From Propionibacteriaceae bacterium (lineage in GTDB: Bacteria; Actinomycetota; Actinomycetes; Propionibacteriales; Propionibacteriaceae), in assembly GCA_030538175.1 (NCBI GenBank), contig JAUNUL010000016.1, positions 1-17,793 of the forward strand: a stretch of DNA of 17,793 bases. Direction: 5' to 3'. Made by a program: the position numbers and the translations under genes. Under the pieces are notes generated by a model that ran no database searches, was not told the origin of the DNA, and worked only from the letters and a program-made list of their open reading frames with translations. Of this stretch, positions 99-15,755 are shown piece after piece. How positions within the stretch are numbered: the stretch's first letter is position 1; each line of letters begins with the position of its first letter.

Positions 99-1067
99 TC
101 AGAGGGTCGGGTCCGACGGAATCGACTGCTTCCAACGCCGCAGACGCCACTCGGAGATCCGGCCGGCGATGCGGTTGGGAATCGCCGTGAGGAGGGCGAG
201 TCGCAGGACCGTGGGTTCCACGGCGGAACCAAGCGCGGGACGAATGACTTCGCGGGCTTCCTTCTGCTCGCCGGTGCGGACCAGGTCACGGGTCAACGAG
301 ACCGCCGCTTCGAGGCGATAGCGCTCGAGCATGGCGTGGTCATAGGTCTTGTCCGATGCCAGGGCGTGATCGATCGAGATGATCCGACCGCGGAGCTGGC
401 TGGCCAAACGCCGGGAGGTGTCGGAATCCGGGTGGATCCGATAGCGCACGGTGGCCTCGGGGACATAGATCGCAGCGGTGGCGTCACCGGCGGCTTCGAT
501 CAGCACGTGCAGGTCATAGGCGCTGGCGGTCTCGATGTTGAGGTTGTGCCAGTCCACCGCGCTGGTGCGGATCACCGCGGCATTCAGCTGGACGCCGCCG
601 TTGAGGACATAGTCGAGGAACGGGCGCAGATAGCCGTGGGGGATGGCCCCGCGAAAGCTGTCCTCCTGGGCCTGCTTTTTCGGCAGGGGCTCGCTGTGCG
701 AGCCGATATAGGTCAGCGGGCCGAAGCTGAGCACCGCGGAAGGGTTGTCCCGCAAGGCACCGACCGCGAGCTCGAGGAAACGCTCATCGAATTCGTCGTC
801 GTCATCAAGCTTGACCGCGAATTCGCTTTCCACGGCCTGGAATCCCGCCAGTGCATTGCCGACCAGGCCAAGATTCTCGGGGCGGCCGATATAGCGGAAA
901 CGGTCATCATTGAAGCTTGCTACGAGCTCGGCGGTCTCAGTCTCATTCGCGTTGTCGCAGATGAGCACCTCGAAATCCGAGAAGGTCTGGGCCACCAGGG
1001 ACTCCAGTGCCAGCTTCAGATATTCCGGTCGCTTGAACGTTGTGGTCACCACTGTCACAGCGGCCAT
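99..1067 (-). CDS. Family 2 glycosyltransferase (GT-A fold), 322 aa
   Basis: This is a predicted cytoplasmic or membrane-associated glycosyltransferase that adds a sugar from a nucleotide donor to a lipid-linked polysaccharide intermediate; donor and acceptor cannot be read from the sequence. The N-terminus (VTVVTTTFKRPEYL, residues 4-17) is the usual GT2 nucleotide-binding start, followed by FEVLICDNA (32-40), ENLGLVGNA (64-72) and an acidic DDDDE run at 88-92 that supplies the DXD metal site. No membrane segments are evident. The reading frame extends upstream to 1187, but the ATG at 1067 is chosen because GGGGAGG lies just before it and the GT2 fold begins there. It is divergent from rfbF; the 152-base gap holds TACTAT (minus strand, 1129-1134) as a possible -10, but no clear -35. 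Tyrosine is encoded by TAT at all ten positions. The GT2 call is secure; the specificity is unknown. Confidence 0.9.
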   Translation of the reverse strand: MAAVTVVTTTFKRPEYLKLALESLVAQTFSDFEVLICDNANETETAELVASFNDDRFRYIGRPENLGLVGNALAGFQAVESEFAVKLDDDDEFDERFLELAVGALRDNPSAVLSFGPLTYIGSHSEPLPKKQAQEDSFRGAIPHGYLRPFLDYVLNGGVQLNAAVIRTSAVDWHNLNIETASAYDLHVLIEAAGDATAAIYVPEATVRYRIHPDSDTSRRLASQLRGRIISIDHALASDKTYDHAMLERYRLEAAVSLTRDLVRTGEQKEAREVIRPALGSAVEPTVLRLALLTAIPNRIAGRISEWRLRRWKQSIPSDPTL

Positions 1068-1219: not shown

Positions 1220-2002
1220 ATGAAAGCAGTGATCTTGGCCGGCGGCTTGGGCACGCGGCTGAGCGAAGAGACCGGAACCAAGCCGAAACCCATGGTGGAG
1301 ATCGGCGAACGCCCGATCCTCTGGCACATCATGGCCTCCTATGCCTCGCATGGGATCACCGAATTTGTGGTCTGCGCGGGCTACAAGGCGTCGGTGATCA
1401 AGGACTGGTTCGCCAGCTATGCCACCCGCTATGCGGACATCACCTTTGATCTGGCGACCGGCGAACAGATCGTGCACAAGCGGGCGACGCTGCCGTGGAA
1501 GGTCACGGTCGTCGACACCGGCCCCGAGACCATGACCGGTGGCCGCCTGAAGCGGGTGCGCGAATATCTGGGCGATGAGCCGTTCTGCTTCACCTATGGC
1601 GATGGTGTCGGCGACATCGACATCCCGGGGTCGATCGAGTTCCACCGCGCCCAGGGCAAGTTGGCGACGATGACGGTCACGCAGCCGCCGGGACGTTTCG
1701 GGGCCATCCAGCTCGGCGCGAGCGAGACCACGATCGAGCACTTCCGCGAGAAGCCCGAGGGCGATGGCGCCTGGGTGAACTGTGGGTTCTTCGTGCTCGA
1801 GCCGGGCGTCATCGACTACATCGCTGATGACTCGACGGTGTGGGAGCAGCAGCCGCTGCAGCAGCTCGCCGTCGGCGGCCAGCTGAACGCGTGGAAGCAC
1901 ACGGGCTTCTGGCAGCCAATGGACACGCTGAACGACAAGAACAAGCTCGAAAAACTGTGGGCGTCCGGGAACGCCCCGTGGAAGAACTGGGACTGGGACT
2001 GA
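1220..2002 (+). CDS. rfbF: Glucose-1-phosphate cytidylyltransferase, 260 aa
   Basis: This enzyme joins CTP and alpha-D-glucose 1-phosphate to give CDP-glucose and pyrophosphate, the entry step to CDP-linked 6-deoxy and dideoxy sugars; it is cytoplasmic. The whole chain matches the family in length and motifs: the nucleotidyltransferase signature [13 protein letters not shown] (6-18), KPKPMVEIG with its lysines (21-29), ILWHIM (33-38), FTYGDGVGD (125-132) with metal-binding aspartates, the EKP segment (178-180), [10 protein letters not shown] (187-196) and a C-terminal [12 protein letters not shown] (225-236). [10 protein letters not shown] followed by KPKPM is typical of RfbF rather than of dTDP-glucose pyrophosphorylases. 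GGGAGG at 1209-1214 sits six bases before the ATG. It is first of five co-directional genes, and CDP-glucose 4,6-dehydratase follows after five bases, which fixes the pathway. A small inverted repeat (GGCGT/ACGCC, 1193-1208) lies just before the ribosome binding site. Confidence 0.97.
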
Positions 2003-2007
2003 CACCT

Positions 2008-3135
2008 ATGCAATCCAAAGACGACGAAGTCGCCTATCTCCGGGACTTCTATCGGGACAAGACCGTCCTGCTGACCGGCATCCACGGCTTCAAGGGCAGT
2101 TGGATGGCGCTGCTGCTGGCCGAGCTCGGGGCCAAGACGATCGGAGTCGGCCTGCACGCCGACGACGGCCTGCTGTTCCCCATGCTCGATCTCGAGGGGT
2201 TGGGGATCGAGAGCCACATCCTCGACATTCGTGATCGCGCCTTGGTCGACCTTGTCGTCGACACCCGTCCGGACGTGATTTTCCACATGGCCGCGCAGCC
2301 GATCGTCAGCGTCGGACACGACGATCCCTATCTCACCTATTCCAGCAATGTGATGGGTGTGGTCAACCTGCTCGATGGCGTGCGCGGGCTCGACAACCGG
2401 GTCAGCGTGGTGAATGTCACCACGGACAAGTGCTATCAGAATGTCGAAAAGGAAGAGCCCTATCTGGAGGATGACCGGCTGATGGGGGAGGACCCCTATA
2501 GCTCCAGCAAGTCATGCGCCGAGTTGGTCTCCTATTCCTATCGGGTGTCCTATTTCGACGACAACCACGCGCCCGATGCGAAGCTGCTGTCCACGGCACG
2601 GGCCGGCAATGTGATCGGCGGCGGTGATTTCGCGCTCAACCGCATTATCCCCGATATGGCCCGCGCCTTGGCCGCCGATGAACCGGTCACCATTCGCAAC
2701 TTCGACAGCATCCGGCCCTATGAGCATGTGCTCGATGCGTTGTACGCGTATGTGGTTCTCGCCGCCAGGCAGTGGGATTCATCCGACCTGGTTGGGGCGT
2801 ACAACATCGGGCCGAACACCGAAAGCGTGATGCGCACCCGTGAGCTCACCGACTATTTCGCGGCCCATTCGCCGCTGAAAATCGTTGATGGCTCCGAGGG
2901 CCGCACGTTCAAGGAATCGATCCTGTTGTCGCTGGATAGTGGCAAGTTCCGTCGGACATTCGACTGGACTCCGACGTGGGCCGGCAAGGACGAAATGCTG
3001 GCCAAGACCCTTGTTTGGTATCAGAAGTGGATCGAGGGCGACGTCGATATGACGGCGTTCACCACAGAACAGGTCAGAGAATTCCTGGCGGCACCGCAAT
3101 CCGCCGACGACACCCTCCAGAAAGCAGAGAGCTGA
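2008..3135 (+). CDS. rfbG: CDP-glucose 4,6-dehydratase, 375 aa
   Basis: This extended short-chain dehydrogenase/reductase converts CDP-D-glucose to CDP-4-keto-6-deoxy-D-glucose, using bound NAD+ for an internal hydride shift. Visible are the Rossmann glycine motif TGIHGFKG (23-30; HGFKG is typical of CDP-glucose dehydratases), HMAAQPIV (93-100), the active-site triad region VTTDK (137-141) and catalytic YSSSK (Tyr164, Lys168). ARAGNVIGGGDF (197-208) and RPYEHVLDAL (236-245) are also family-typical. The frame is open upstream to 1840, but that part overlaps rfbF out of frame; ATG 2008 gives the standard length and starts five bases after the rfbF stop, suggesting coupled translation. Its stop overlaps the next start by one base (TGATG). 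The product is the branch point for paratose, abequose, tyvelose, ascarylose, yersiniose and other CDP-sugars; which one is made here depends on the following genes. Tyrosine codons are 14 TAT to 2 TAC. Confidence 0.97.
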   Translation: MQSKDDEVAYLRDFYRDKTVLLTGIHGFKGSWMALLLAELGAKTIGVGLHADDGLLFPMLDLEGLGIESHILDIRDRALVDLVVDTRPDVIFHMAAQPIVSVGHDDPYLTYSSNVMGVVNLLDGVRGLDNRVSVVNVTTDKCYQNVEKEEPYLEDDRLMGEDPYSSSKSCAELVSYSYRVSYFDDNHAPDAKLLSTARAGNVIGGGDFALNRIIPDMARALAADEPVTIRNFDSIRPYEHVLDALYAYVVLAARQWDSSDLVGAYNIGPNTESVMRTRELTDYFAAHSPLKIVDGSEGRTFKESILLSLDSGKFRRTFDWTPTWAGKDEMLAKTLVWYQKWIEGDVDMTAFTTEQVREFLAAPQSADDTLQKAES

Positions 3136-3677
3136 TGCAGTTCACACCGACTGAGGTGGATGGTTGCTGGATCGTTGATCTGGAAACCATTGGTGATGAC
3201 CGGGGCTTCTTCGCCCGCACCTTCGACCGTGCAGAATTCGAGGCCCACGGGATCGATCCTTTCATCGCCCAGGGGAACATGTCGTTCAACCACAAGGCCG
3301 GCACGTTGCGCGGCATGCACCGTCAGATCGAGCCGCATGCCGAGGGCAAGCTCGTGCGCTGCATCAGCGGCTCGATCGTTGACTGCTGTCTTGACCTGCG
3401 CGAGGACAGCCCCACTTTCGGCAAGAACGTGATGGTCGAACTGAGCGCCGAGAACCGGCGGGCCCTGTGGATTCCGCCCTATTGCGCGCACGGCTACTAC
3501 ACCCTCACCGATAACACCGAGGTCACCTATCAGGTGTCCGGTCCCTATGCGCCCCAGGGTGAAAAGGGACAGCGTTATGACGATCCGGCATTCGGTCTGG
3601 AATGGCCGGGCGAGGTGGTCGTGATCTCGCAGAAGGATCTCAACTGGCCCGACTGGGACGGGAAGGCAATCCGATGA
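3135..3677 (+). CDS. RmlC-type nucleotide-sugar 3,5-epimerase family (cupin), 180 aa
   Basis: This belongs to the dTDP-4-dehydrorhamnose 3,5-epimerase (RmlC) family. By operon context its substrate is likely CDP-4-keto-6-deoxyglucose rather than a dTDP-sugar; this is inference. Family residues are present: DDRGFFARTF (21-30), LRGMHRQ with the catalytic His62 (58-64), KLVRCISGSIVDCCLDLR (72-89), PPYCAHGYYTL (115-124), E129-x-x-Tyr132, YAP with Tyr138, and a late aspartate (Asp169) in the QKDLNWP segment. With His, Asp and both tyrosines kept, it looks like an active epimerase; whether it acts at C3, C5 or both cannot be read. The start ATG overlaps the rfbG stop (TGATG), and the stop overlaps the next start by four bases (ATGA), so translation is probably coupled. 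Its length is close to the usual RmlC length of about 180 aa. Confidence 0.92.
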   Translation: MQFTPTEVDGCWIVDLETIGDDRGFFARTFDRAEFEAHGIDPFIAQGNMSFNHKAGTLRGMHRQIEPHAEGKLVRCISGSIVDCCLDLREDSPTFGKNVMVELSAENRRALWIPPYCAHGYYTLTDNTEVTYQVSGPYAPQGEKGQRYDDPAFGLEWPGEVVVISQKDLNWPDWDGKAIR

Positions 3678-4981
3678 TCATCACCGACACGCTCCTGGCC
3701 CAGCGCCACGCCGAGGGGAACCCGGTTCGGATCGGCGTCATCGGCCCCGGCTTCATGGCCCGCGGCATGATGAATCACATCCGCAACACCATGACTGGCA
3801 TGACTGTCAGCGCGGTCTATGCCCGCGACGTCGCCAAGGCCCGGGAATCACTGGCCTATGCCGGTTATGCAGCCGACGAGATCGTCGACGGCGAGTCCGT
3901 GCAGGCGGTTGAAAAGGCCGTTGAGGGTGGCCTGGTTGCCGTCACCGACAACTATGAGGATCTCACCGCCGCCAACGGCCTCGATGCGATCGTGGACTGC
4001 AGCGGCTCGGTCGAATTCGGCGCCCATGTAGCGTTGTCGACCATTGCCAACGGCAAACACCTGATTCTGATGAATGCCGAAGTCGATGCCACCATCGGCT
4101 CGATTCTGGCGAAGAAGGCGCAGAGCGCCGGCATTGTGTACACCGGCATCGACGGTGACCAGCCGGGCGTCGAGATGAACTTGGTGCGCTTTGTTCGGGG
4201 CCTCGGTGTGACGCCGTTGTTGGCCGGCAACATCAAGGGTCTGCAGGATCGCTTCCGCAACCCAACCACCCAGGAAGGCTTCGCCAAGCAGTGGGGCCAG
4301 AACGTGCATATGGTCACGAGTTTCGCTGACGGGACGAAGGTCTCGATCGAGCAGGCTCTGGTTGCTAATGCGGCGGGTTTCTCGGTCCATGAAAACGGCT
4401 GCCTCGGTCGTGATTTCGAGGGCCATGTCGATGAGCTGACGACCGAATATGACGTGGAAGAACTCATCGCCATGGGTGGTGCCGTCGACTATGTCGTGAA
4501 GGCCAAGCCGGGTCCCGGCGTGTTCGTGCTCGGCACCCATCCCGACCCCAAGCAGCAGCATTTCCTGTCCTATTACAAGCTTGGGACCGGACCGCTCTAT
4601 AGCTTCTATACGCCGTATCACCTCTGCCATTTCGAGGTGCCCACGACGGTGGCTCGCGCGGTGCTGCTGGGGGACGCCACGATCGCTCCGCTGCCGGACG
4701 GTCCGCGGGTCGAGGTTGTGACCGTCGCGAAGAAGGAGCTCCGTGCGGGTGACACCCTTGACGGCATCGGTGGCTATAGCTATTTCGGTGAATGCCGACC
4801 CGCCGCCGTGCAGCGTTCCGCCGGCCTGCTTCCGGTGGGATTGGCCGAGGGCGTGGTCGTCAATCGGGACATTGCGGTCGACGAGGTGATTTCGTACGCC
4901 GACGTCACCCTCCCCGAGGGTCGGCTCGCGGATCAGTTGCGTGCCGAACAGGACGCGCTGTTCAACCCCGGAAAGGCCTGA
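3674..4981 (+). CDS. DRL-like NAD(P)-dependent oxidoreductase with SAF-type C-terminal domain, 435 aa
   Basis: The N-terminus is a homoserine-dehydrogenase-like Rossmann fold (RIGVIGPGFMARG, 19-31; VDCSG, 107-111), followed by GKHLILMNAEVDATIG (127-142), a catalytic region and a C-terminal SAF-type segment from about residue 350 (VAKKELRAGDTLDGIGGYSY, 351-370). This order, the block FYTPYHLCHFEVPTTVAR (311-328) and the length resemble, from memory, the DXR-like (DRL) family first characterised in Brucella, which converts 1-deoxyxylulose 5-phosphate to methylerythritol 4-phosphate by carbon-skeleton rearrangement and NADPH reduction. Such proteins are often annotated only as SAF-domain or FlgA-like. 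Its place after CDP-sugar dehydratase and epimerase genes, with four-base coupling, argues for a nucleotide-sugar substrate, so it may be a reducing or rearranging final enzyme (inference). A true MEP-pathway role is the alternative. The family call is fairly sure; the reaction is unknown. Confidence 0.82.
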   Translation: MIITDTLLAQRHAEGNPVRIGVIGPGFMARGMMNHIRNTMTGMTVSAVYARDVAKARESLAYAGYAADEIVDGESVQAVEKAVEGGLVAVTDNYEDLTAANGLDAIVDCSGSVEFGAHVALSTIANGKHLILMNAEVDATIGSILAKKAQSAGIVYTGIDGDQPGVEMNLVRFVRGLGVTPLLAGNIKGLQDRFRNPTTQEGFAKQWGQNVHMVTSFADGTKVSIEQALVANAAGFSVHENGCLGRDFEGHVDELTTEYDVEELIAMGGAVDYVVKAKPGPGVFVLGTHPDPKQQHFLSYYKLGTGPLYSFYTPYHLCHFEVPTTVARAVLLGDATIAPLPDGPRVEVVTVAKKELRAGDTLDGIGGYSYFGECRPAAVQRSAGLLPVGLAEGVVVNRDIAVDEVISYADVTLPEGRLADQLRAEQDALFNPGKA

Positions 4982-4992
4982 GCGGAGGACCG

Positions 4993-5592
4993 ATGGAATT
5001 CACTGCGGAGCGCCGGCCCAGGACCTGGGCTGAGGCGAAGTCAGCCTTTCGACAGCTGCGGGAGGCCGATTTCGCGCGCAGCCCTTCGCTGTTCCACCGG
5101 ATCACGTCCACGATTTGGCGGGCGGGGCAGGTGCTGCTGCATGCGCGCGGACCGGTGGCGTTCGTTGTTCGCCGGTTCGTGTTGGTGGCCGACCTCGTGT
5201 GGACGCAGACCCTGATGGGGGCTGAACTGCCACACGAGGTCTGGGCCGGACCAGGGGTCAAGCTCGAGCATGGTGCACGCGGTGTGATCATGCATCCGTC
5301 GACCGTGATCGGCTCCGAGGTGACCATCTATCACCGGGTGACGATCGGCGTACGCGATGCCCGCCCCGCAGCGACCATCGGTGATCGGGTCGAGCTGGGC
5401 ACAGGTGCCACTCTCCTGGGCCCAGTGCAGGTAGCCGACGGATCACGGGTCGGGGCCAACGCGGTCCTGCTGAACGACACCGAACCCGACTGCACCTATG
5501 TCGGTGTCCCGGCGAAGCGCGTGGGGGAGCAGCGCGTCGTGGAGACCTATTGGGAGTTCACCCGCCCGGCCTGGATGCCGGATCGGGGCTGA
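4993..5592 (+). CDS. Left-handed beta-helix acetyltransferase, serine O-acetyltransferase-like, 199 aa
   Basis: This hexapeptide-repeat acyltransferase probably O-acetylates a sugar or glycan precursor with acetyl-CoA. Residues 85-175 carry the turns of the helix: GPGVKLEHGARGVIMHPS (86-103), VIGSEVTIYHRVTIGV (105-120), a short loop, then IGDRVELGTGATLLGPV (129-145) and GSRVGANAVLLNDTEP (150-165), ending in the typical YVGVPAKRVG (169-178). LEHG with His93 aligns with the catalytic His of CysE-type enzymes. It is about 70 residues shorter than CysE, and the N-terminal part (1-80) lacks the family's acidic helical bundle, so cysteine synthesis is less likely than polysaccharide decoration. GCGGAGG upstream supports the ATG; the start is 11 bases after the preceding stop. 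It is the last gene of the CDP-sugar operon, which implies that the sugar or its product is acetylated. Confidence 0.85.
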   Translation: MEFTAERRPRTWAEAKSAFRQLREADFARSPSLFHRITSTIWRAGQVLLHARGPVAFVVRRFVLVADLVWTQTLMGAELPHEVWAGPGVKLEHGARGVIMHPSTVIGSEVTIYHRVTIGVRDARPAATIGDRVELGTGATLLGPVQVADGSRVGANAVLLNDTEPDCTYVGVPAKRVGEQRVVETYWEFTRPAWMPDRG

Positions 5593-5697: not shown

Positions 5698-7314
5698 TCA
5701 ACGCAGATAGTCGAAGACAGTCCACTGTCCGTTGGAGTGCAGGTGGTGTGTGCCGCAGATGCCCGGCATGAAGTCGGGGTCGATGTTGCGCACCACCACC
5801 TCCGCGTACACCTCGTCATCCAGACGCGTGATCTTCCGAATGGTCGACCCGGCGCCATACGTGGTGAACCCGATGCGTTGCGAAACCCGATAGATGTCAT
5901 CACCATCGCGGAGGATGCCACCATTGCGGGCGGCCTGGGCATCGGTGACCACCGGATTCTGCGGATGTGGGGTCCAGTCCTGAGTCAGCAGGGTGGGGGC
6001 CGAGAAGACATGAAGTTCAGCTCCGGGGCGTTGCTGACCGCTGGGGTCGATATTGGTGAGCATCCACCACTTGTCCGCGTGCGGGAACAGCAGCGTGTCA
6101 CAGGCATCCACGTTCGGCATCAACGTCGCGGCAAGTTCCCATTGCAGGGGGAATGTAGTGCAGCGATAGAGGCGGATCTCGTTGGCTCCCATGGTTTCGG
6201 GGCACATATAGATCTCACCGTCGTGACGGAAGACGTTCGGGAACGACAGATGGAAACTCTCGTCGAGAGCCACGCCGAGGCGTTCGGCACCGTCCTCGGA
6301 AAGGCGATAGACCGAGATGATCCCACGAGCAGTGGCGAAGGGGTACTCCTCGACGAAGCAGTACTGCTGTCCCTCATGCTCGAACACAAAAGGGTCCGCC
6401 AGGAAGGTGTCGGCGGGGTTCTCGATCTCGGTGGCTCCGGCAAAGTCCACGTGCTGCCACGAGACATTCTGGAAACCGACGGACCACGTGCCCTCTTTGC
6501 CGAGGCGGCGACGGAGCCGGCCGGTGGCCATGGCACGGGCGCGGTTGAACCCATACCGCAACTGGCGTACGACCGATGGGGTCGCAGGGGCAGCGACGGC
6601 GAGCTGCGGCGTGCCCGCCGCGATCGTGGGGAGGTCCCCCGACCGTGCGAGCGTCGTCAGTGCCTCCTGCAGGTGATGCATCGCCAATTGGGTGATACCG
6701 GCCCGGTTCGCCGCATAAGACGGATAGGTGGCATGACTCCCGGTCCGGATCACCCGGACGCCCTGCGGACCGTGTTGGGAGACGGTGAACGACGTTGTCG
6801 GGGCGCGGTGGAGCACCTCGGTGAATCCGGGTGGGCCGACCGCAGGTCCGGTCCCATCCCCGAGATCGAGTTGCAGTACGCCGTGGCGCACCCCCGTCGC
6901 GAGCCCGGACCGCAGGGCAGTGGTGGGGACCAACCGGACGAGGACATCCACGCCGGCGAGGTCCCGGGCCAGTTCCGCAGAGCCATGCTCGGTCATGTCG
7001 ACCGTGACCACCCGGTGGCCGCCCGTCGTCAGGTCGACACTGTCCGCGTGCCGGGCGAACTCCGGGCGGCGCTGCAGAGCCCTGGCCTCCAGCGAGGTCA
7101 GCAGCGCGAACAATGACCGCGCCATCCTCACCGGAGCTTTGGCAGCGGGGGCGTTGTTGGCAACGACGATCACGTGCGTCACCAGAAGATCGGATCGATC
7201 GCGGGTCCAGTCGAGGAAGTCCCGGATCTCGGAAGGTCCGAACCGGGACTCCGCGACCAACCCGATCTTCAAGGGGTCGATGTCTGACACCGTGTGCTCA
7301 CTTCTGGCGGTCAT
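5698..7314 (-). CDS. GINT1-like beta-propeller protein with degenerate formyltransferase-like N-terminus, 538 aa
   Basis: Two parts are visible. Residues 15-230 look like a worn formyltransferase fold: KIGLVAES (16-23), LVRLVP (125-130) and VGPPGFTEVLHRAPTTSFTV (159-178), the equivalent of the stretch after the catalytic loop in methionyl-tRNA formyltransferase relatives. The usual His of the HxSLLP loop is absent (LQLDLGDGTG, 147-156), so catalysis of that kind is doubtful. Residues 275-538 form a five-bladed-propeller-like region recalling the N-terminal domain of plant glucosamine inositolphosphorylceramide transferase (GINT1): LADPFVF (305-311), CFVEEYP (319-325), HLSFPNVF (355-362), IYMCPET (368-374) and KWWMLTNI (415-422). 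A carbohydrate-related role is inferred from family and context. The start overlaps the previous stop by four bases (ATGA); a GTG eight codons in is an alternative. It is last in the minus-strand operon. No signal peptide is seen. Confidence 0.72.
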   Translation of the reverse strand: MTARSEHTVSDIDPLKIGLVAESRFGPSEIRDFLDWTRDRSDLLVTHVIVVANNAPAAKAPVRMARSLFALLTSLEARALQRRPEFARHADSVDLTTGGHRVVTVDMTEHGSAELARDLAGVDVLVRLVPTTALRSGLATGVRHGVLQLDLGDGTGPAVGPPGFTEVLHRAPTTSFTVSQHGPQGVRVIRTGSHATYPSYAANRAGITQLAMHHLQEALTTLARSGDLPTIAAGTPQLAVAAPATPSVVRQLRYGFNRARAMATGRLRRRLGKEGTWSVGFQNVSWQHVDFAGATEIENPADTFLADPFVFEHEGQQYCFVEEYPFATARGIISVYRLSEDGAERLGVALDESFHLSFPNVFRHDGEIYMCPETMGANEIRLYRCTTFPLQWELAATLMPNVDACDTLLFPHADKWWMLTNIDPSGQQRPGAELHVFSAPTLLTQDWTPHPQNPVVTDAQAARNGGILRDGDDIYRVSQRIGFTTYGAGSTIRKITRLDDEVYAEVVVRNIDPDFMPGICGTHHLHSNGQWTVFDYLR

Positions 7315-9104
7315 CCCCGCCGCGGGAAACGGAACCTGGAGGGACGCTGTCCATCCTTGGTGGGTTGCCCACCATCGCGGGGAATGGCTGGTCGGATCTG
7401 GGTGACTTCCGAACTGTCGTCCGGTGAGTACGCCGGCCCGCTTGCTGCAGGGGGTTCCGGCTGGCGGAGGATCGTGGAGTCCGCCGCGTTATCAGGTGCC
7501 CGGAAATCCGGCCCCTGCGGGGAGGCTTGGCGATCACGACCGTCATCGTGACCTTGCCCGCTCGAGCTGGCCTGACCCGCAGAAGGCCACTGTGCTTCCG
7601 CGGGACGCAGCATGGTGGCGTCCACGTCGTGTGGCGCCTGCCCGTATCCGTGCGAAGGCGAGGGTGCTTCGGTGGGGCGGAGCATGGTGGCGTCCACGTC
7701 GTGTGGTAGATGGCTGGCCGGCGCATGGTCCAGAGCTCGTTGCGGGGTGCCAGTCTGCCGGGTCGCCCCCGCCAGAGCCTGGAAGCGGCTCCGGCTGACC
7801 TCGTGAAAGTCCCGGAGGGTTGGCAAGTTGACCAAGACCCCTCGCCCGGCGATTCCCCAGAGCATCCAGACCATGAAGTTGGGCATGGGATAGGGATTGG
7901 GGCTGGTCATGCTGGGCACGAACCAGATGAAGAAGGCAGCCCAGCCGAGCAACTTCCAACCATGGATCTCGTGCACGCGGGCTCGGCCGGACAGGGCAAG
8001 CACCGGGCCCAAGAGGACCACCAGACCCCACAGGATCGCACCGGGGATGCCGGTTTCCGCAGCCCTCGACAGGAAGACGTTATGGATCTCGATGTTGACG
8101 GTGGTAACGGGATAGTTGTCGGCCTGGCGGACCCAGAGCATGCCATCGATGAGGAACTGTCCCCAACCGATGCCCTGCAGTGGCTCGGCCGCAATGATGC
8201 GGAACGCCGCGTCGTTGGTGTTGACGCGGTCGAAGAGCGACCCGCCCTCGGAAGCCCGGGCGAACAGGTCGTCCCGGAGTCCCGGGTTCATCAGCAGAAT
8301 GAGCCCCGCGAGCCCCAACAGGACACCGCCAATGGTCGGCACCCGTCGTCGCAGGGCTGGGACTCCGAGGACGAAAACGGCCGCGCCCAGGGCCAGGCCC
8401 AACCAAGCCGATCGGGTCATCGACATGGCATTCGCCACCACGCTGAGGACAGCCGCAGCCACCCCGACCCATCGCCACGCACCCTTGGAGCGATAGGCCA
8501 GGAACGCGGACATGAAAAAGGTGAGCGCCGCTGTCATGCCGAGCGGTTCACCACCGCCAAACGGTCCGACTGCGCGCCATTCGGGCATGATCTCGTGGAA
8601 GTCCTCGATATAGCGAGGGAAGACCAACAGCCACAGACCCAAACGCTCCAGGATCGCAGTGAAGCCGAGATAGATGCCCAGCACCGCGGCCGTGCGCAGG
8701 AGCAGCATTCGTCGAGTGGCGGTGGCAAAGATCAGTGCGCCGACGATGAACATCGCGAAGGGCAGCACGATCCGGTCCAGCAGTGCGAACCCCTTGTGGG
8801 TGTCGGTGAGCACGCCCGTCGATATCCACGAGATCAAGGTCCAGACCACCGTGAGCACCATGACGGGATAGACCGCCCGCCACCGAAGGCTCTCCGTGCC
8901 CGGATCGAGGATCAACAAGACGATAGCCAACAGGAACAGGGGACGGTCCAGCGCCATCGGCAGGCCGAGTGCGTCGGAATGCCCCGAGAACATGCTGAGG
9001 AGGAGCGCCGCCAGGAAGACCCACACGAAGAGGGGAGCTCTGGTTTCCGCTGATCTCTCCTGCTGGGCGCGGACTCGCGCCCGAGCGAGCGCAGCGACGG
9101 CCAT
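7311..9104 (-). CDS. Wzy/O-antigen-ligase-like membrane protein with repetitive cytoplasmic-type tail, 597 aa
   Basis: Residues 25-440 are a polytopic membrane protein with roughly ten or more hydrophobic segments (for example 25-40, 56-66, 78-95, 112-128, 139-161, 187-204, 211-226, 232-249, 257-272, 354-371, 385-397). Wzy_C hallmarks are SMTRSAWLGLALG (228-240) and, after a long outside loop, IEIHNVFLSRAAETGIPG (338-355). Proteins of this type polymerise lipid-linked repeats or ligate glycan to a carrier; polymerase is favoured here because flippase and Wzz-like genes adjoin. The 150-residue tail (about 450-597) is hydrophilic and low in complexity, with four copies of a [D/E]-x-T-x-[I/L]-R-[P/Q] motif at Thr473, 497, 544 and 568, and it ends in basic residues. 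The start is two bases after the upstream stop and the 3' end overlaps the next gene, so the gene is embedded in an operon. Confidence 0.87.
   Translation of the reverse strand: MAVAALARARVRAQQERSAETRAPLFVWVFLAALLLSMFSGHSDALGLPMALDRPLFLLAIVLLILDPGTESLRWRAVYPVMVLTVVWTLISWISTGVLTDTHKGFALLDRIVLPFAMFIVGALIFATATRRMLLLRTAAVLGIYLGFTAILERLGLWLLVFPRYIEDFHEIMPEWRAVGPFGGGEPLGMTAALTFFMSAFLAYRSKGAWRWVGVAAAVLSVVANAMSMTRSAWLGLALGAAVFVLGVPALRRRVPTIGGVLLGLAGLILLMNPGLRDDLFARASEGGSLFDRVNTNDAAFRIIAAEPLQGIGWGQFLIDGMLWVRQADNYPVTTVNIEIHNVFLSRAAETGIPGAILWGLVVLLGPVLALSGRARVHEIHGWKLLGWAAFFIWFVPSMTSPNPYPMPNFMVWMLWGIAGRGVLVNLPTLRDFHEVSRSRFQALAGATRQTGTPQRALDHAPASHLPHDVDATMLRPTEAPSPSHGYGQAPHDVDATMLRPAEAQWPSAGQASSSGQGHDDGRDRQASPQGPDFRAPDNAADSTILRQPEPPAASGPAYSPDDSSEVTQIRPAIPRDGGQPTKDGQRPSRFRFPRRG
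7609..7706 (-). repeat. Tandem 72-base direct repeat in the Wzy-like tail
   Basis: Positions 7609-7634 and 7681-7706 are identical over 26 bases, and similarity continues weakly outward (TGCTTC at 7593 and 7665), giving a period of 72 bases or 24 codons. In protein the two copies encode PHDVDATML at residues 491-499 and 467-475. Two more divergent copies of the core motif lie further along the tail at Thr544 and Thr568, again near multiples of 24 residues. Confidence 0.9.
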
Positions 9105-9106
9105 CG

Positions 9107-9955
9107 TCAGCCCTGGGTCTGGCCGCGGCGACGAGCCGACGCGGTCGCGCTGATGACGCCCACGGCACCGCCCACGACCAAACCGAGCAGGCCACCGATC
9201 TGCATGTTGCTGGACCGGCTGGAGGTCGGCTTGCCGACTTCACGGACGAGGGTGAGCTTCGCGGCCTGCGAGTTCTCTGAGATCAGACGGACGAGCTTGG
9301 TCTGCTGTGCGTTCAGTTCGGCCTCGGCGATTCCCTCTGCGCCCTTGGCCTCGGCCAGTCGGTTGCGGGCTCCATCACGCTGTTCCACCGTGGCGACGGG
9401 GGGTGCTTGGAGGCGGATCAGCTCAGCCTGGTGCGACTGCACGCGAGCGAACGCATCGGAATACTGCTGCGAGGCGGCAGCGAGGGCGTCACGGGTGTCC
9501 TTGATCTCCCGCTGGATGCTCTCGTCGTTCACCTGGGCGATCAGCTCATCGGCCGCCGCGGTGGCGGCAGCTGTCGCGTCCTCGGCGTTCTTGGACGTGG
9601 CCTCGATCCGGATCACGTTGGATTCCGGGATCTGCGACGCCTTGAGCTTGACACCCGGCATGGTGGCCTCGCGGGCGACACCCGTGCTGTTGACGTAGCG
9701 CGCATAGTTGGACGCGAGGTTCACTGCGGCCAAAGGGAAGCCGGCGATAGCCGACGTGGTCAGCGAGCCCTGCCCGACCGCAACCCGCACCTCTGCGGTC
9801 TGTGACGTCGGGATGAGGAGGCCAACCAGGACACCCAGGAGGGCGCCCACGAGGGAGATGGCGCTCACCCTGACCCAGCGCTTGCGGACCGCGGCCATGG
9901 GCGCTGCCGTGCGATCAATAATGGGCTCGTCCTCGCGTGCCTCAACTGTGCTCAT
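9107..9955 (-). CDS. Wzz-like polysaccharide chain-length / co-polymerase protein, 282 aa
   Basis: The layout is that of a chain-length determinant protein: a short cytoplasmic N-terminus, TM1 at about 29-49, a long extracytoplasmic part with a helical, coiled-coil-prone stretch (about 145-235, rich in Ala, Glu and Gln), and TM2 at about 251-271 followed by a basic RRRGQTQG end. No kinase domain or Walker motif follows TM2, so if a tyrosine kinase partner exists it is encoded elsewhere. These proteins sit with Wzy and set polymer length; here the Wzy-like gene follows after two bases. The frame opens further upstream to 10069, but ATG 9955 is preferred because the TM1-proximal N-terminus then has normal length; its ribosome binding site (GTGGAA) is weak. 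TAGGTT on the minus strand (9970-9975) could be a -10 element for an internal promoter with a very short leader. Confidence 0.85.
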   Translation of the reverse strand: MSTVEAREDEPIIDRTAAPMAAVRKRWVRVSAISLVGALLGVLVGLLIPTSQTAEVRVAVGQGSLTTSAIAGFPLAAVNLASNYARYVNSTGVAREATMPGVKLKASQIPESNVIRIEATSKNAEDATAAATAAADELIAQVNDESIQREIKDTRDALAAASQQYSDAFARVQSHQAELIRLQAPPVATVEQRDGARNRLAEAKGAEGIAEAELNAQQTKLVRLISENSQAAKLTLVREVGKPTSSRSSNMQIGGLLGLVVGGAVGVISATASARRRGQTQG

Positions 9956-10065
9956 TCGTTCCACTGGACAACCTAACCTGAAACTGACGTGGTCGGCTGA
10001 GTCTTGCACGCACGTGCTAAAGCACCCAAGCTGCGGTCCGCTGACCGTGACGGCTGCCCCGGGGT

Positions 10066-10090
10066 GCACCGCCTGGATACAGGTGGGTGC
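10066..10090 (-). terminator. Hairpin just after the GT4 gene (weak candidate)
   Basis: GCACC-g-CCTG (10066-10075) can pair with CAGG-tg-GGTGC (10080-10090), with a GATA loop and a small internal bulge. It starts seven bases after the stop of the minus-strand GT4 gene. No T-run follows on the minus strand, so it may only slow or trim the transcript, allowing differential expression of the Wzz-like gene after it. Confidence 0.3.
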
Positions 10091-10096
10091 CGTCTG

Positions 10097-11341
10097 TCAA
10101 AGGGAGCGGGCCCCCTGGAGGAAGGCGTACTGTCGCTGTGCCTGCTCGGCCTTGGAATAGTCCCGGATGACTGCATCTCGACCGGCCTCGCCGAGTCGGA
10201 CGGCCAGCGCCGGATCTGCGGCGAGCTCAGTGAGCGCGTCGGCGACCAGATCTGCGCGCCCGGGGGTGAGGAGCCACCCATTGACGCCATTCACAACGAG
10301 CTCGCCGATGCCGGCGATCCGAGTCGTCACCACGGGCAGACCCGTCGACATCGCCTCCATCAGCACCACCGGCAGCCCCTCTTGGAAGCTGGGCAGGCAG
10401 AAAACGTTCGCCCAGTGATAGTGCGCCAGGATGTCGTCCTGGCCGACCGCGCCGGTGAACGTCACCTCATTGACCAAGTTGGCTGCCGCAACCTGGGCGG
10501 TCAGCGACTCGCGCAGGGGCCCGTCGCCGACCAGGCGTACTTCGAAGGAAACGCCCGCCTTCTTCATGGCCGCCAGCGCATCGATCAGGACAGGAGTGCC
10601 CTTCTCCGGGACCAGCCGACCGACCTGAAGGATCCGCAGTGGGGTCTCCGCCCGGACGCCGGGGGCCGGCAGACTAAAGCGATCCGTGTCGACGCTCATC
10701 CGCACCAGATGGAGCTTCGACCAATGCTCGGGATCGGTGAACCGCATGAGTTGGCTGCGGGTGAAATCCGAAATGCAAGCCACGCCTGATGCCGATTCCA
10801 CCTTGGCGGTCAGGTCATAGTGGGCAACGGCCTCAAACTCGGTGGAGCCGTGCATGGTGAAAGACCACGACCAGCCCGAATCCGGGCCATCCAGGGCCAA
10901 CCCCAACTCAGCCACGAGCCGGGCGATATCCGCACCATTGTTGGCGAAGTGGGCGTGGATGTGACGGATCCCCTGGCGGGACATTTCCTGCTGGATCCGT
11001 GCAGCCTCAGCCAGATAGAACATCTGCCAGACACGGGCGCGGACCCGCTTGTCGCCGGTCCGGGCAGCCTTCGTGAGGGCTCGGAAATAACCGGCGGGGT
11101 TCCGGGTCACAGCAGACGCGTTGTCCCGCAGGACCTGTCCCTTGTCTGCTTGGACGACCACCGTGCTTGCAGCCTCGCTGCGCATCGCCTCGCTGGACAG
11201 CTCGGCGGGGGGCTGACGGACGCTGAACGTCACCACGTCGAGGCCCAGCTCCCGCAAACCGAGAACTTCGCGTTCGATGAAGGTGTGGGAGAGCGCCGGA
11301 TACTGGCTCACCAGATAGGCAACGGGTGCTGCGACCTGCAT
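10097..11341 (-). CDS. Family 4 glycosyltransferase (GT-B fold), WcaL-like, 414 aa
   Basis: This retaining GT-B glycosyltransferase probably extends the lipid-linked repeat unit at the cytoplasmic face. The N-terminus YLVSQYPALSHTFIEREV (9-26) is typical of WcaL/AmsK-type enzymes of colanic acid and amylovoran synthesis. IRHIHAHFANNGADIA (125-140) and FTMHGSTEFE (161-170) follow; the donor domain starts at ILQVGRLVPEKG (237-248), with VGDGP (271-275) and the nucleotide-sugar motif EGLPVVLME (321-329, the E-x7-E pair). There is no signal peptide or TM segment. The ATG is preceded by AAAGGACG at good distance. It lies 29 bases after the GT2 gene and 141 before the Wzz-like gene. Donor sugar unknown. 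Tyrosine codons are mostly TAT (7 of 8). Confidence 0.92.
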   Translation of the reverse strand: MQVAAPVAYLVSQYPALSHTFIEREVLGLRELGLDVVTFSVRQPPAELSSEAMRSEAASTVVVQADKGQVLRDNASAVTRNPAGYFRALTKAARTGDKRVRARVWQMFYLAEAARIQQEMSRQGIRHIHAHFANNGADIARLVAELGLALDGPDSGWSWSFTMHGSTEFEAVAHYDLTAKVESASGVACISDFTRSQLMRFTDPEHWSKLHLVRMSVDTDRFSLPAPGVRAETPLRILQVGRLVPEKGTPVLIDALAAMKKAGVSFEVRLVGDGPLRESLTAQVAAANLVNEVTFTGAVGQDDILAHYHWANVFCLPSFQEGLPVVLMEAMSTGLPVVTTRIAGIGELVVNGVNGWLLTPGRADLVADALTELAADPALAVRLGEAGRDAVIRDYSKAEQAQRQYAFLQGARSL

Positions 11342-11369
11342 GTGACGTCCTTTCAGACAATCAAGGGGA

Positions 11370-12221
11370 TCAGGACTGTTGGCGGCTGGATTCGTCGCGG
11401 TGCCACTGCTGAGGCGTACGCCGTGACCGGACGCGGGCTGCGACCGTGATGCCGGAATAGACAGCTGCGGCAGGGATCAGGCCCGGTCGACGACGGAGCA
11501 ACTCGACCAGTGCCTGAGCCGTGGAGCGGGTCGTCATGGCAGCATCCATCCCGGGCACGGGGGGTGCTGCGGCGAGCTCTTGGGAGCCCTGGGCAGCCCG
11601 GGTGCGCACGGCCAGGAGATCCTGCCAACGGCGGGGGACCCGGACGACGAATTCACCAGGCACGGTGATCCGTTCATCCAGGGTGAACAGGCGCTGCACG
11701 AAAAGGTCGTCCGCGGTCAGCTCCGGGAAGGCATCGAAACGTTGGCGGCCCTTCTCGGACAGGGCATAGATGCCGAGACCGATCAATCCTTCGGTCACAT
11801 AGGGCAGGCGTTCATAGATGGCATAGAAGCCTCGAACCACTGCGTCCGTGCCCTCGGTATCGAACCGGATGTGCGGCGCCGCCGCCCGGGGCTCGTCGAC
11901 GTTGAGGGCCTCCCACAGGCTGCGCACGGTCCCCGGGGAGAGCTGGATATCCGCATCCAGATAGATCCGGGGAAATAAGGTCGCGTGGCTGTCACCCAGG
12001 TTCAGCGCATTGGCCTTGCCGCCGGTGGGGGTTTCCACCACCACCAGCCCAGGAATCAGGTCGCTGGCAGCACGGGCCACTTCGGCCGAACGGTCCGTGG
12101 ATCCGTTGACCACCACGATGACCTCGAAGCCCTCGATGCCGGGTTGGTCGGCCAGGGCCTTGAGGCATCCGGGCAAGAGGCGTTCTTCGTTGTGTGCCGG
12201 GATGATGATGCTTCCGTGCAT
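11370..12221 (-). CDS. Family 2 glycosyltransferase, 283 aa
   Basis: This GT2 enzyme opens with GSIIIPAHNEERLLPGCL (3-20), then FEVIVVVNGSTDRS (32-45), TPTGGKANALNLGD (65-78) and the metal-binding YLDADIQL (87-94). LTADDLFVQRLF (168-179) supplies the later acidic active-site region of the fold. The C-terminal part (200-283) is basic and has one weakly hydrophobic stretch (about 247-262), so peripheral membrane binding is possible. ATG 12221 is chosen over the GTG two codons earlier because GGAGG (12227-12231) overlaps that GTG and stands five bases before the ATG. The GT4 gene follows after 28 bases. The 108-base gap before it (towards the flippase) contains TAGGTT at 12285-12290 on the minus strand, a possible -10. 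The acceptor and donor are unknown. Confidence 0.9.
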   Translation of the reverse strand: MHGSIIIPAHNEERLLPGCLKALADQPGIEGFEVIVVVNGSTDRSAEVARAASDLIPGLVVVETPTGGKANALNLGDSHATLFPRIYLDADIQLSPGTVRSLWEALNVDEPRAAAPHIRFDTEGTDAVVRGFYAIYERLPYVTEGLIGLGIYALSEKGRQRFDAFPELTADDLFVQRLFTLDERITVPGEFVVRVPRRWQDLLAVRTRAAQGSQELAAAPPVPGMDAAMTTRSTAQALVELLRRRPGLIPAAAVYSGITVAARVRSRRTPQQWHRDESSRQQS

Positions 12222-12329
12222 CGTCACCTCCCCCTTCGCAGATGTCGCGTCCGGCTGCCTGGCCGGGGACTACAGGGCATGGTCAACCTAGCGCAGTCGA
12301 TCGTGCGCCCCGTGGGTGTCGGCGAGCTG

Positions 12330-14318
12330 TCACTTGCCACGGTTCTTGATCCGCTGCAGGAGCTCACGGGTGCGCTGGGGGCCCAGCGCGAGAACCAGGT
12401 ACACCCCGAGCGCGGGAGCCGCAGCCAGCCCAACGGTCAACAGCGCCAGGGCACCCGTCGGTACGAGTGTGCCGACCAGGAAGTGGGATGCCGCCCAAGC
12501 GCCGGCGAGGGAGAGGACCGAGCTGAGGAGCGCAATGTGCCACGGCACGCGTGTCAGCGGGTTGCCCAGCTGGGTGGGCAACACACGGCGAACCAACACG
12601 AGCACCAAAGCCGCTGACAGGATCGACGCAATTAAGGTGGCGGCCACCGAACCCAGGGCGCCGAAGGTGCCGATCAGAGCAAATGTGAGGCCGAGGTTGA
12701 ACACGGCGTTCACCACCGACGACTTCATCCCCACATCGGAGCGGCCCAGGATATTGGCCCACTGGGTCTGGACGAAGACGAAGAGCTGGGCCCCGCGGGA
12801 GATCAGCAGCAAGCTGGCCACGATGCCGGGCAGCGAGGTGCCGAGGGCCAGCCAGGCATTCACTCCCATCAAGGCGGCCGGGGCGCCGACAGCAATCCAA
12901 CCGACGACCATGATCAGCCAGACCTGTTCGAGTTTGGCGATGTTGTCGACGGCTCCGTCCGCGCCATCTGCACCCACCTTTTGTCCGATGTGGGACTGGA
13001 TGGGGAAGGCGGCGTTCATGGGGACCATGCCGACGGTGTTCGAAAAGCTTGCGCCGGTGCCGAAGGCCACCATTTCCCGGGCCGCAAACTTGCCAACCAA
13101 CAGGTTGCCTGCGGAGTCCGAGACGATGGTCAGGAACCCCGATACCTGGATCTTCCACGCGTACTGGAAGAACTCGATCAGCAACGGCTTGTCGACGAAG
13201 CCGATGCCGGCCCGGGTGAGCAGCTTCAAGGCGCTCGGCACGATGATCAGGGTGCCGATGACCTGCTGGCCGACGAAGGTCCAGGCCAGACCAGTCAGGC
13301 CCTGCCCGGTTTCGACGGTCCAGATGACGCCGGCGGTATAGACCACGGACCCCATCAGCAAGGCCGTGCTTGACACTGCGAAGCGGTGGTGGGCAAAAAG
13401 GACCTGTGCGAGCAGACCACGCATCTGGGCCACCGCCGAGATGACCAGCATGGTGCGCAACAGGATGATGGCGCCGCCCGGATCGGGCGCGAAGACAGGG
13501 AAGAAGCCGACGATCACCGGAGCGAGCCAGAACACCACGCCGAGGACGACCACGCTGATGATGGTGATCGCGATCTGCAACGTGCACAGCAGCCGTGTGG
13601 TTGCCGCGGCATCGCCGCGGCCTGCATAGATCGAGAAATAGCGACCCGCGCTGGGGCCGATCCCGCCATCAAAGCTGCCCAGGAACATCTGCACGGCCAT
13701 GACGAGCAGGAAGATGCCATAGAGCCCTTGGCCGAGGCCGTGGATGACGTAGGGCGTGAGCACCAGGTTCACCACCAGCGGCAGCACCTGTGAGGCAGCC
13801 TGCCAGCTGGTGCCCTTCAGCAGCGTCTTGGCAGCACCGCCCCGCTTCTTCGTCGGTGCGCCGTCCCCATCCGGTTCGTCACCGTCCGGCTCGCCTGTGG
13901 CCATCTCATCCGGTGTGGCCGGCGACGGGCCGTCGTTCGGCGCCTCGCGCGCCTGGATGGGCAACCGCTGGAGTGTGGGCAGGTCGATCTGCGCTGGGCG
14001 GCCCAGATCCAGTCCTGAGGGAACATCCACCGGATGCGGTTCGTCGGCACCACGGGGCAGCAGATGACCGTGAGCTGGACCAGCGTCGGACGCCGGGTCG
14101 TGCTGAGCCCGGGTGGCGGGTTCGTCAGCACGGTGTTGACCGGCCGACGTGGGGTGGTCCCCGGACGCCTTGGGGTCCGGCGCGACCGGGCTGGTGTGGG
14201 CGTCAGCCGGCCTCTGGTGTTCTCCGTCAGGCTGAGCGGCCGCCCGGCGTGGTGCCGGGTCGGCCGCTTCAGGTGACGTGAACCCCGCGGATCTGCGGGG
14301 CTCAGGCACCACGTCCAC
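12330..14318 (-). CDS. Wzx-type polysaccharide flippase with long disordered N-terminus, up to 662 aa
   Basis: From about residue 165 on this is a MATE/MVF-like polysaccharide transporter with some 12-14 hydrophobic segments; it starts with an amphipathic KTLLKGTSWQAASQVLPLVV (164-183), as Wzx and MurJ-like flippases often do, and GLGQGLYGIFLL (194-205). It would flip undecaprenyl-linked repeats outward. The first 155 residues are Pro/Ala/Asp/His-rich, without hydrophobic stretches, and probably disordered; an acidic DGDEPDGDG (146-153) precedes KKRGG. Codon use in this part looks coding. The start is uncertain: GTG at 14318 (or GTGs at 14312 and 14309) overlaps the end of the previous gene and has no clear ribosome binding site, while ATG at residue 139 would remove most of the extension. 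It is second in the minus-strand operon. Confidence 0.87.
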   Translation of the reverse strand: MDVVPEPRRSAGFTSPEAADPAPRRAAAQPDGEHQRPADAHTSPVAPDPKASGDHPTSAGQHRADEPATRAQHDPASDAGPAHGHLLPRGADEPHPVDVPSGLDLGRPAQIDLPTLQRLPIQAREAPNDGPSPATPDEMATGEPDGDEPDGDGAPTKKRGGAAKTLLKGTSWQAASQVLPLVVNLVLTPYVIHGLGQGLYGIFLLVMAVQMFLGSFDGGIGPSAGRYFSIYAGRGDAAATTRLLCTLQIAITIISVVVLGVVFWLAPVIVGFFPVFAPDPGGAIILLRTMLVISAVAQMRGLLAQVLFAHHRFAVSSTALLMGSVVYTAGVIWTVETGQGLTGLAWTFVGQQVIGTLIIVPSALKLLTRAGIGFVDKPLLIEFFQYAWKIQVSGFLTIVSDSAGNLLVGKFAAREMVAFGTGASFSNTVGMVPMNAAFPIQSHIGQKVGADGADGAVDNIAKLEQVWLIMVVGWIAVGAPAALMGVNAWLALGTSLPGIVASLLLISRGAQLFVFVQTQWANILGRSDVGMKSSVVNAVFNLGLTFALIGTFGALGSVAATLIASILSAALVLVLVRRVLPTQLGNPLTRVPWHIALLSSVLSLAGAWAASHFLVGTLVPTGALALLTVGLAAAPALGVYLVLALGPQRTRELLQRIKNRGK
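14280..14303 (-). terminator. Hairpin spanning the junction of the exoprotein and flippase genes
   Basis: On the minus strand GAGCCCCGC and GCGGGGTTC pair over nine positions (one G-U) around an AGATCC loop. The hairpin covers part of the stop codon of the secreted-protein gene (14302-14304) and the first codons of the flippase. There is no T-run. It may act as a partial terminator or processing site, or may lower flippase translation; or it may be a chance product of GC-rich sequence. Confidence 0.35.
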
Positions 14319-15597: not shown

Positions 15598-15652
15598 CGT
15601 GATCCGCCCTTCAACTTGTTTCGTAACGCGGGCATGGCACTGCCGCGCGTTC

Positions 15653-15658
15653 AATATA
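15653..15658 (-). promoter_or_regulatory. Candidate -10 element of the minus-strand export operon
   Basis: TATATT on the minus strand is the most AT-rich hexamer in the 158-base divergent gap between the exoprotein and GT2 genes. It would place the transcript start about 50 bases before the TTG start at 15597. No good -35 hexamer stands 16-18 bases upstream, which is common in actinobacterial promoters but weakens the call. Confidence 0.35.
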
Positions 15659-15755
15659 ACGCTCACTTCCACTGTGTGAGGTTTGCTGTGCCACCCAGCG
15701 GAGGCCCCTGCCGCGAAACGCGGCGTCCCGTTAGCCTGTGGGCTGGAGGTGGCTC

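Follow-up and report, generated by a model that had tools for sequence, protein, structure and literature searches.

A DRL-fold oxidoreductase in a conserved CDP-sugar gene cassette and its possible link to streptose-type ring contraction

The DRL superfamily comprises the DXR-II type of 1-deoxyxylulose 5-phosphate (DXP) reductoisomerase and two further, uncharacterised families, DLO1 and DLO2 (PMC3847144). According to the same source, fosmidomycin is anchored in DXR-II by Thr229 with Lys191 and Lys193, while Arg320 lies in the dimer interface; Thr229 is conserved in DXR-II, whereas Leu, Ile or Val stands there in DLO1, and DXR-II can occur together with DXR-I (PMC3847144). Concerning the branched sugars of the streptose type, RmlC-type enzymes are reported to deliver a doubly epimerised substrate, and PMC9095892 describes both the C4 oxidase for the 6-hydroxylated substrate of dihydrohydroxystreptose and the rearranging enzyme as unidentified, the streptose rearrangement being unassigned there too. 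Here we analyze a stretch of 17,793 nt from a Propionibacteriaceae bacterium (contig JAUNUL010000016.1, assembly GCA_030538175.1), the whole of which is called the window, and in particular a gene in it for a DRL-fold protein that closes a four-gene cassette with rfbF, rfbG and a gene for an RmlC-type epimerase. The closest relatives of this protein include StrU of streptomycin-type antibiotic clusters; StrU and the other names from StrD to StrX are our labels, based on homology.

What is new is a conserved cassette for a sugar linked to cytidine diphosphate (CDP) that has a DRL-fold protein as its last member, together with a testable link to ring contraction of the streptose type; in the literature searched, we found no published function for any enzyme of the DLO1/StrU clade. 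That the DRL protein is the last enzyme of the cassette and acts by ring contraction is a proposal to which we give a probability of about 0.48, a little short of an even chance.

The DRL protein and its clade

The window protein is 34% identical to Brucella DRL along its full length and exceeds the curated cut-off for the DRL catalytic domain (PF21135), which together with the DRL fold places it in the superfamily, as the initial annotation had proposed from motif order. A Pfam scan at E 1e-3 returned DRL_cat, NAD_binding_3 and GFO_IDH_MocA alone; the extended domain of the short-chain dehydrogenases/reductases (SDR), which characterizes UDP-apiose synthase, was absent at this threshold.

This raises a first question: Is the protein a second DXP reductoisomerase, of the DXR-II type, that serves isoprenoid synthesis and lies in a sugar operon by chance? 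Its full-length identity with Brucella DRL speaks for such a role, but the residues do not. In our alignment the equivalents of Thr229, Lys191, Lys193 and Arg320 are Val223, Asn186, Lys188 and Thr313, so that the window protein has neither the Thr229–Lys191 pair nor the Arg320 of DXR-II. The comparison covered 114 proteins, of which 17 are without sugar-nucleotide context, including one clade protein at a contig end (L034). All 97 clade proteins have Asn186 and either Val, Ile or Met at position 223, and 94 of them have Thr313; Lys222, Glu226, Asn232 and His316 are kept in all 114 proteins, and Lys188 in 111.

A tree of 69 of the 114 proteins, for which 24 were hand-picked from the 69 of L020-L088, separates with branch support 95/95 the 53 proteins that have cassette or streptomycin context from the 16 that do not, although long branches (L139, L172, L162 and others) make the individual positions of those proteins unsure. 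The window protein groups with the DRL proteins of streptomycin clusters, apart from the context-free ones. Because of this split and of the residue pattern, it looks like a protein of the DLO1 type, not of DXR-II, with membership of DLO1 deduced from the residue and the genera rather than from rebuilding the tree of PMC3847144. The conserved context of the clade, moreover, is that of sugar-nucleotide synthesis, and the genome encodes a normal dxr (127 bits, cut-off 21.7), therefore needing no second DXP reductoisomerase, in keeping with the earlier expectation. Altogether, a DXR-II role for this protein is hardly credible.

Gene context and the step before the DRL protein

Within the window, RfbF and RfbG exceed their equivalog cut-offs (TIGR02623, TIGR02622), as expected of a pathway to a CDP-4-keto-6-deoxyhexose, RfbG showing the motifs TTDK and YSSSK. 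The epimerase, above the TIGR01221 cut-off, retains its presumed catalytic His and Tyr and completes a sugar-nucleotide cassette of the kind found in most of the clade; its gene overlaps rfbG at a TGATG junction. The presence of a DRL-like enzyme in a CDP-sugar operon, first noticed from the sequence, is thus confirmed.

How general is this arrangement? A scan of named genomes with an alignment of relatives gave at least 469 confirmed loci, the best 80 of which were read. Further loci came from plasmids and from two surveys, part of whose matches were read: one of the class of the window organism (DRL_cat match in 43 of 394 genomes) and the other of Pseudomonadota, the phylum of genome G793 (DRL match in 53 of 398). 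The total is 153 loci, mostly stretches of about 20 kb, including a duplicate that was dropped (L081 = L225) and one locus without DRL match at the cut-off, which falls in neither group below (L246). Among the best 80, an RmlC-type gene is present in 79 and rfbF in 73 or 72, depending on whether the looser or the other cut-off is applied; a different SDR of about 340 amino acids accompanies them in 67 loci and rfbG in eight, with both in none and neither in five, four of which are contigs cut near the gene. The order rfbF-rfbG-epimerase-DRL proposed in the initial annotation does exist, but the commoner form has the SDR in place of rfbG.

Sequence identity with the window protein leaves a clean gap between 99 loci at or above 46.7% and 52 loci at or below 38.9%. 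The former have RmlC in 94 cases, rfbF in 83, the SDR in 79, rfbG in nine and a match to L-2-hydroxyglutarate oxidase in 57, while each of these five is found in 0 of the 52 low-identity loci. Five clade loci are devoid of RmlC: L034 lies on a cut contig, L142-L144 are streptomycin-type clusters, and in L217 the clade DRL gene lies with rfbF and the SDR, no RmlC match being found within the 20 kb read. The cassette is present in Actinomycetota, Cyanobacteriota, Pseudomonadota, Deinococcota and Bacteroidota and, outside Streptomyces, the DRL gene mostly lies directly downstream of rmlC. Of 40 listed places read in Pseudomonadota, three have the clade DRL with rfbF and the SDR, two of them also with RmlC, and 37 have no cassette gene, one of the latter showing a weak rmlA match; an RmlA version of the cassette was not found among these 40 places. 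In the compact plasmid cassettes of Deinococcus, Gemmobacter and Paracoccus no second reductase is annotated, which sustains the earlier reasoning that the DRL protein is the last enzyme. The Persicobacter cassette has two tandem RmlC-type genes between rfbG and the DRL gene (L139:6915-7989).

Three low-identity DRL genes, L140, L172 and L173 (from Nitratireductor, Listeria innocua and Rhizobium), adjoin genes for a glucitol/sorbitol phosphotransferase system or for a thiamine pyrophosphate-dependent dehydrogenase (pyruvate-dehydrogenase-like complex), which suggests that they serve sugar-alcohol catabolism and not isoprenoid supply. Four records of Listeria phages also carry a gene of the DRL family, at about 34% identity (H31-H34), although these records are perhaps host sequence deposited under a phage name.

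The SDR of the commoner cassette shows the motifs SSCSVYG and YxxxK instead of the TTDK of 4,6-dehydratases. Its best match in the PDB, shared by the Streptomyces copy, is 6VO6 (E 4e-31), which we take to be Cj1427. This enzyme is described as a C4-dehydrogenase with bound NADH that is reoxidised by 2-oxoglutarate, yielding L-2-hydroxyglutarate (PMC10680097). A match to L-2-hydroxyglutarate oxidase, confirmed in the copy tested (NF008726, 594 bits, cut-off 299), lies in or beside 57 of 78 SDR cassettes with RmlC versus none of nine rfbG cassettes, one of the 57 being doubtful (L138, 31%, annotated as another FAD oxidoreductase); Fisher's p of 4e-5, computed with the duplicate included, is too small since the loci are related. 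Such a distribution is expected if the SDR, unlike RfbG, requires an outside oxidant, and it makes possible a 2-oxoglutarate/2-hydroxyglutarate redox cycle for the C4 oxidation of a nucleotide sugar.

SDR and rfbG are mutually exclusive in all loci read, and on the tree the rfbG label has to change three times, in the window group, in a Nostocales group and in Persicobacter. Because of both facts, the two proteins seem to lead into one and the same 4-keto step, with one type of epimerase and of DRL protein apparently receiving a 4-keto sugar either with or without its C6 oxygen. The 6-hydroxy epimerase has been described as having Met where Phe is conserved (PMC9095892). In the RmlC proteins of SDR and rfbG cassettes alike, the last position of AHG(Y/F) is mostly Y, so that it does not distinguish the two forms, its correspondence with the published numbering being unsure.

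Streptomycin-type clusters and the proposed ring contraction

The substrate, rearrangement and product that we infer are the following. Acting on the 4-keto sugar, the DRL enzyme would cleave C2-C3 by a retro-aldol reaction; C4 would then be joined to C2 by a second aldol step, contracting the ring and turning C3 into a formyl branch, which would finally be reduced with NAD(P)H. In the window the product would be CDP-5-deoxy-3-C-hydroxymethyl-L-lyxofuranose (CDP-dihydrostreptose), while in the commoner cassette, where the SDR of C4-dehydrogenase type replaces RfbG, the C6 hydroxyl would be retained to give the dihydrohydroxystreptose form. Ring contraction is favored because fold and domain match those of an enzyme carrying out such a reductive rearrangement on DXP (PMC3847144); by analogy, DRL chemistry on the doubly epimerised 4-keto substrate would be ring contraction with reduction. 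Only tentatively do we extend this to the whole DLO1/StrU clade as ring-contracting nucleotide-sugar reductoisomerases, leading to CDP-dihydrohydroxystreptose after a C4-dehydrogenase and to CDP-dihydrostreptose after a 4,6-dehydratase.

Indirect support for ring contraction comes from the split pattern of five streptomycin-type clusters. Among 392 genomes of Streptomyces, the genus of G408, eight have a DRL match at 1e-30, which is strong in five (G408, G747, G457, G659 and G757). All five clusters carry an amidinotransferase at least 82% identical to that of L144, itself scoring 719 bits against inosamine-phosphate amidinotransferase 1BWD, plus other streptomycin-type genes. Two of them, G747 and G408, have the SDR (StrP), rfbF (StrQ) and rmlC (StrX) alongside the DRL protein (StrU). 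In about 80 kb read around the G408 cluster there is no match to StrE, StrL or StrM; in G747 about 0.8 kb separate StrM from StrD, as against 2.1 kb in G659, and StrL and StrE occur there only as pieces (L269:14100-15100). The other three, G457, G659 and G757, have StrD, StrE, StrM and StrL; their stretches read contain no StrP match and no RmlC besides StrM, hence no StrX, and a StrQ-like protein is absent genome-wide (nothing above 73 bits). Since the StrQ-StrP-StrX and StrE-StrL parts thus occur one without the other, the former set seems to take the place of some steps of the streptose route. StrU of G408 shares 99.8% identity with its counterpart in Streptomyces subrutilus, presumably a source of hydroxystreptomycin, and StrU of G457 is 100% identical to that of S. 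mashuensis, which we take to be a source of streptomycin. A protein search with StrQ, in which the species of the query itself was not listed, named too few species to separate the producers.

How can this split be explained? If StrQ-StrP-StrX made N-methyl-L-glucosamine, three clusters would be left without that sugar and two without streptose, unless the genes lie elsewhere. If their product were instead a streptose-type sugar with the C6 oxygen retained, no cluster would be incomplete, the difference between clusters would predict streptomycin versus 5'-hydroxystreptomycin, and the remaining reductase in the two StrQ clusters would be the DRL protein. We also considered StrQ-StrP-StrX-StrU as one N-methyl-L-glucosamine branch, against which speak the three clusters out of five that have no StrQ-like protein anywhere in the genome.

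Several points weigh against ring contraction. The five clusters were chosen by their DRL protein, so that the sharing of StrU is no evidence. The cassette is found in only two of them, with StrQ proteins of 293-295 bits, just below the curated cut-off of 300.25; the absence of StrE and StrL from G408 refers to the surroundings of the cluster; and in G457, G659 and G757 StrU adjoins StrL without StrQ, StrP and StrX. Two of the three fosmidomycin-anchoring residues of Brucella DRL (Lys191 and Thr229) are changed in the clade (to Asn186 and Val, Ile or Met223), and therefore the Brucella mechanism need not transfer. The assignment of strP, strQ and strX is, moreover, to N-methyl-L-glucosamine, an unbranched L-sugar. 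These genes are called essential, and placed outside the cluster, in PMC12498427, which treats a strain with streptomycin detected and with dihydrostreptose genes; should both sets coexist in that genome, the exchange would not be a strict one. Finally, the biochemically known pathways that offer the closest parallels, for GDP-heptoses and CDP-6-deoxy-L-altrose, end in plain reduction.

These last points lend themselves to a simpler chemistry, namely that the DRL protein is a plain C4 ketoreductase converting CDP-4-keto-L-rhamnose, unrearranged, into CDP-L-rhamnose or CDP-6-deoxy-L-talose and, in SDR cassettes, forming CDP-L-mannose or its C4 epimer. The same three-step logic closes with C4 reduction in both pathways (PMC10680097, PMC12369002), the essential strP, strQ and strX (PMC12498427) would fit their presumed unbranched product, and the residues anchoring the substrate in the clade are unlike those of DXR-II. 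The genome, moreover, has a single RmlC-type protein, so that an L-rhamnose-like sugar made on CDP could replace dTDP-rhamnose. Plain reduction would, however, enlist a fold known for catalyzing a rearrangement, and we consider it a substantial minority possibility. Another reading is that the DRL protein acts at a different keto group, for instance C2, or in another antibiotic step such as that to N-methyl-L-glucosamine, leaving an unseen enzyme to finish the cassette product. This accords with StrU occurring without StrQ, StrP and StrX in three of the five clusters (themselves selected by StrU), but outside Streptomyces the protein is tied to the same cassette across five phyla, mostly just 3' of rmlC, which makes such a role unlikely. 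On balance the initial interpretation, in which a CDP-4-keto-6-deoxyhexose undergoes ring contraction by the DRL protein, is partly supported.

Should ring contraction hold for the whole clade, the clade would be a streptose/hydroxystreptose synthase, the 5'-hydroxyl of hydroxystreptomycin would be the retained C6 oxygen and not the result of a later hydroxylation, and streptose-type branched sugars would be widespread in the surface polysaccharides of cyanobacteria and actinobacteria. The cassette offers candidates for both gaps mentioned in PMC9095892, the SDR of C4-dehydrogenase type and the DRL-fold enzyme, and the DRL group may fill a missing step in some streptomycin-type clusters. A function would also be given to a large uncharacterised group, at least 7969 proteins matching one StrU at E 1e-100 or better, presumably all of the clade, and the fold would be seen to move between isoprenoid and sugar-nucleotide metabolism. 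The DLO1 gene of Coxiella burnetii may be cbu1836, on which the literature searched gave nothing; this serves as a lead only. A DLO1 protein is listed for this organism (PMC3847144), which has dihydrohydroxystreptose in its O-antigen and RmlA, an SDR and RmlC in region cbu1831-1838 (PMC9095892, PMC3539893).

Neighboring genes and comparison with described systems

Table 1. Coordinates and profile scores of cassette features in the window
Feature	Position	Strand	Profile evidence
rfbF, glucose-1-phosphate cytidylyltransferase (forms CDP-glucose)	1220..2002	+	TIGR02623 408.7 bits, cut-off 300.25
rfbG, CDP-glucose 4,6-dehydratase	2008..3135	+	TIGR02622 343.4 bits, cut-off 278.45
RmlC-type 3,5-epimerase	3135..3677	+	TIGR01221 162 bits, cut-off 155.75; PF00908 204 bits
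NAD(P)H-dependent oxidoreductase with DRL fold (DLO1/StrU clade), proposed as a CDP-sugar reductoisomerase for the last step	3674..4981	+	
NAD(P)-binding Rossmann domain (residues 24-153 of the DRL protein)	3743..4132	+	PF03447 34 bits
DRL catalytic domain, residues 161-322	4154..4639	+	PF21135 173.2 bits
Hexapeptide acetyltransferase, EpsC/CysE-like	4993..5592	+	PF00132; NF041874 88.5 bits, below cut-off 150

The acetyltransferase gene begins 11 bases past the DRL stop and is perhaps on the same transcript; it lies outside the conserved cassette, a match being found in one of the best 80 related loci (28% identity). Glycosyltransferases and a protein with Wzy_C, of the O-antigen ligase family, are encoded at 99-1067 (-), 7311-12227 (-) and 15738-16757 (+), and because of these neighbors the cassette sugar is probably destined for a surface polysaccharide. 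The same bacterial polysaccharide locus encodes, at 5698-7314 (-), a protein with the GINT1_N domain (PF24793, 136 bits), named for glucosamine inositolphosphorylceramide transferase 1. Four open reading frames (9107-10069, 12330-14318, 14302-15672 and 15663-16256) have no Pfam match at 1e-5.

Among described systems, Brucella DRL (DXR-II; PDB 3UPL, 3UPY) differs from the window protein in the replacement of Lys191, Thr229 and Arg320, in the RmlC/RfbF context and in the presence of dxr beside the latter. The DLO1 family shares the hydrophobic residue at position 229 and includes a Streptomyces griseus protein; Nostoc and Anabaena stand in its list as well as among our surveyed loci, and a family treated as uncharacterised in that account is here tied to a CDP-sugar cassette (PMC3847144). 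StrU of the streptomycin-type clusters is 54-57% identical to the window protein and has the same clade-specific residues, a StrX-like epimerase adjoining it in two of the five clusters; as RfbG takes the C4 step in the window, a 6-deoxy sugar would result there.

UDP-apiose synthase contracts the ring of a nucleotide 4-keto sugar by retro-aldol and aldol steps, as proposed here; unlike the window protein, it has the SDR fold, uses UDP-glucuronate and decarboxylates it. The dTDP-dihydrostreptose route, as outlined in PMC9095892, likewise has a 4-keto sugar, a 3,5-epimerase and then ring contraction with reduction, the last being what we propose for the cassette, but it proceeds on dTDP instead of CDP and is expected to contract the ring by means of an RmlD paralogue. 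The Campylobacter route to CDP-6-deoxy-L-altrose and CDP-D-fucose shares CDP-glucose, the 4,6-dehydratase, the 3,5-epimerase and an NADPH reductase, whereas its product is a plain hexose that a separate mutase turns into a furanose (PMC12369002). The GDP-heptose pathway follows the same logic of C4-dehydrogenase and 3,5-epimerase and, contrary to the ring contraction suggested here, closes with a plain reduction at C4 (PMC10680097).
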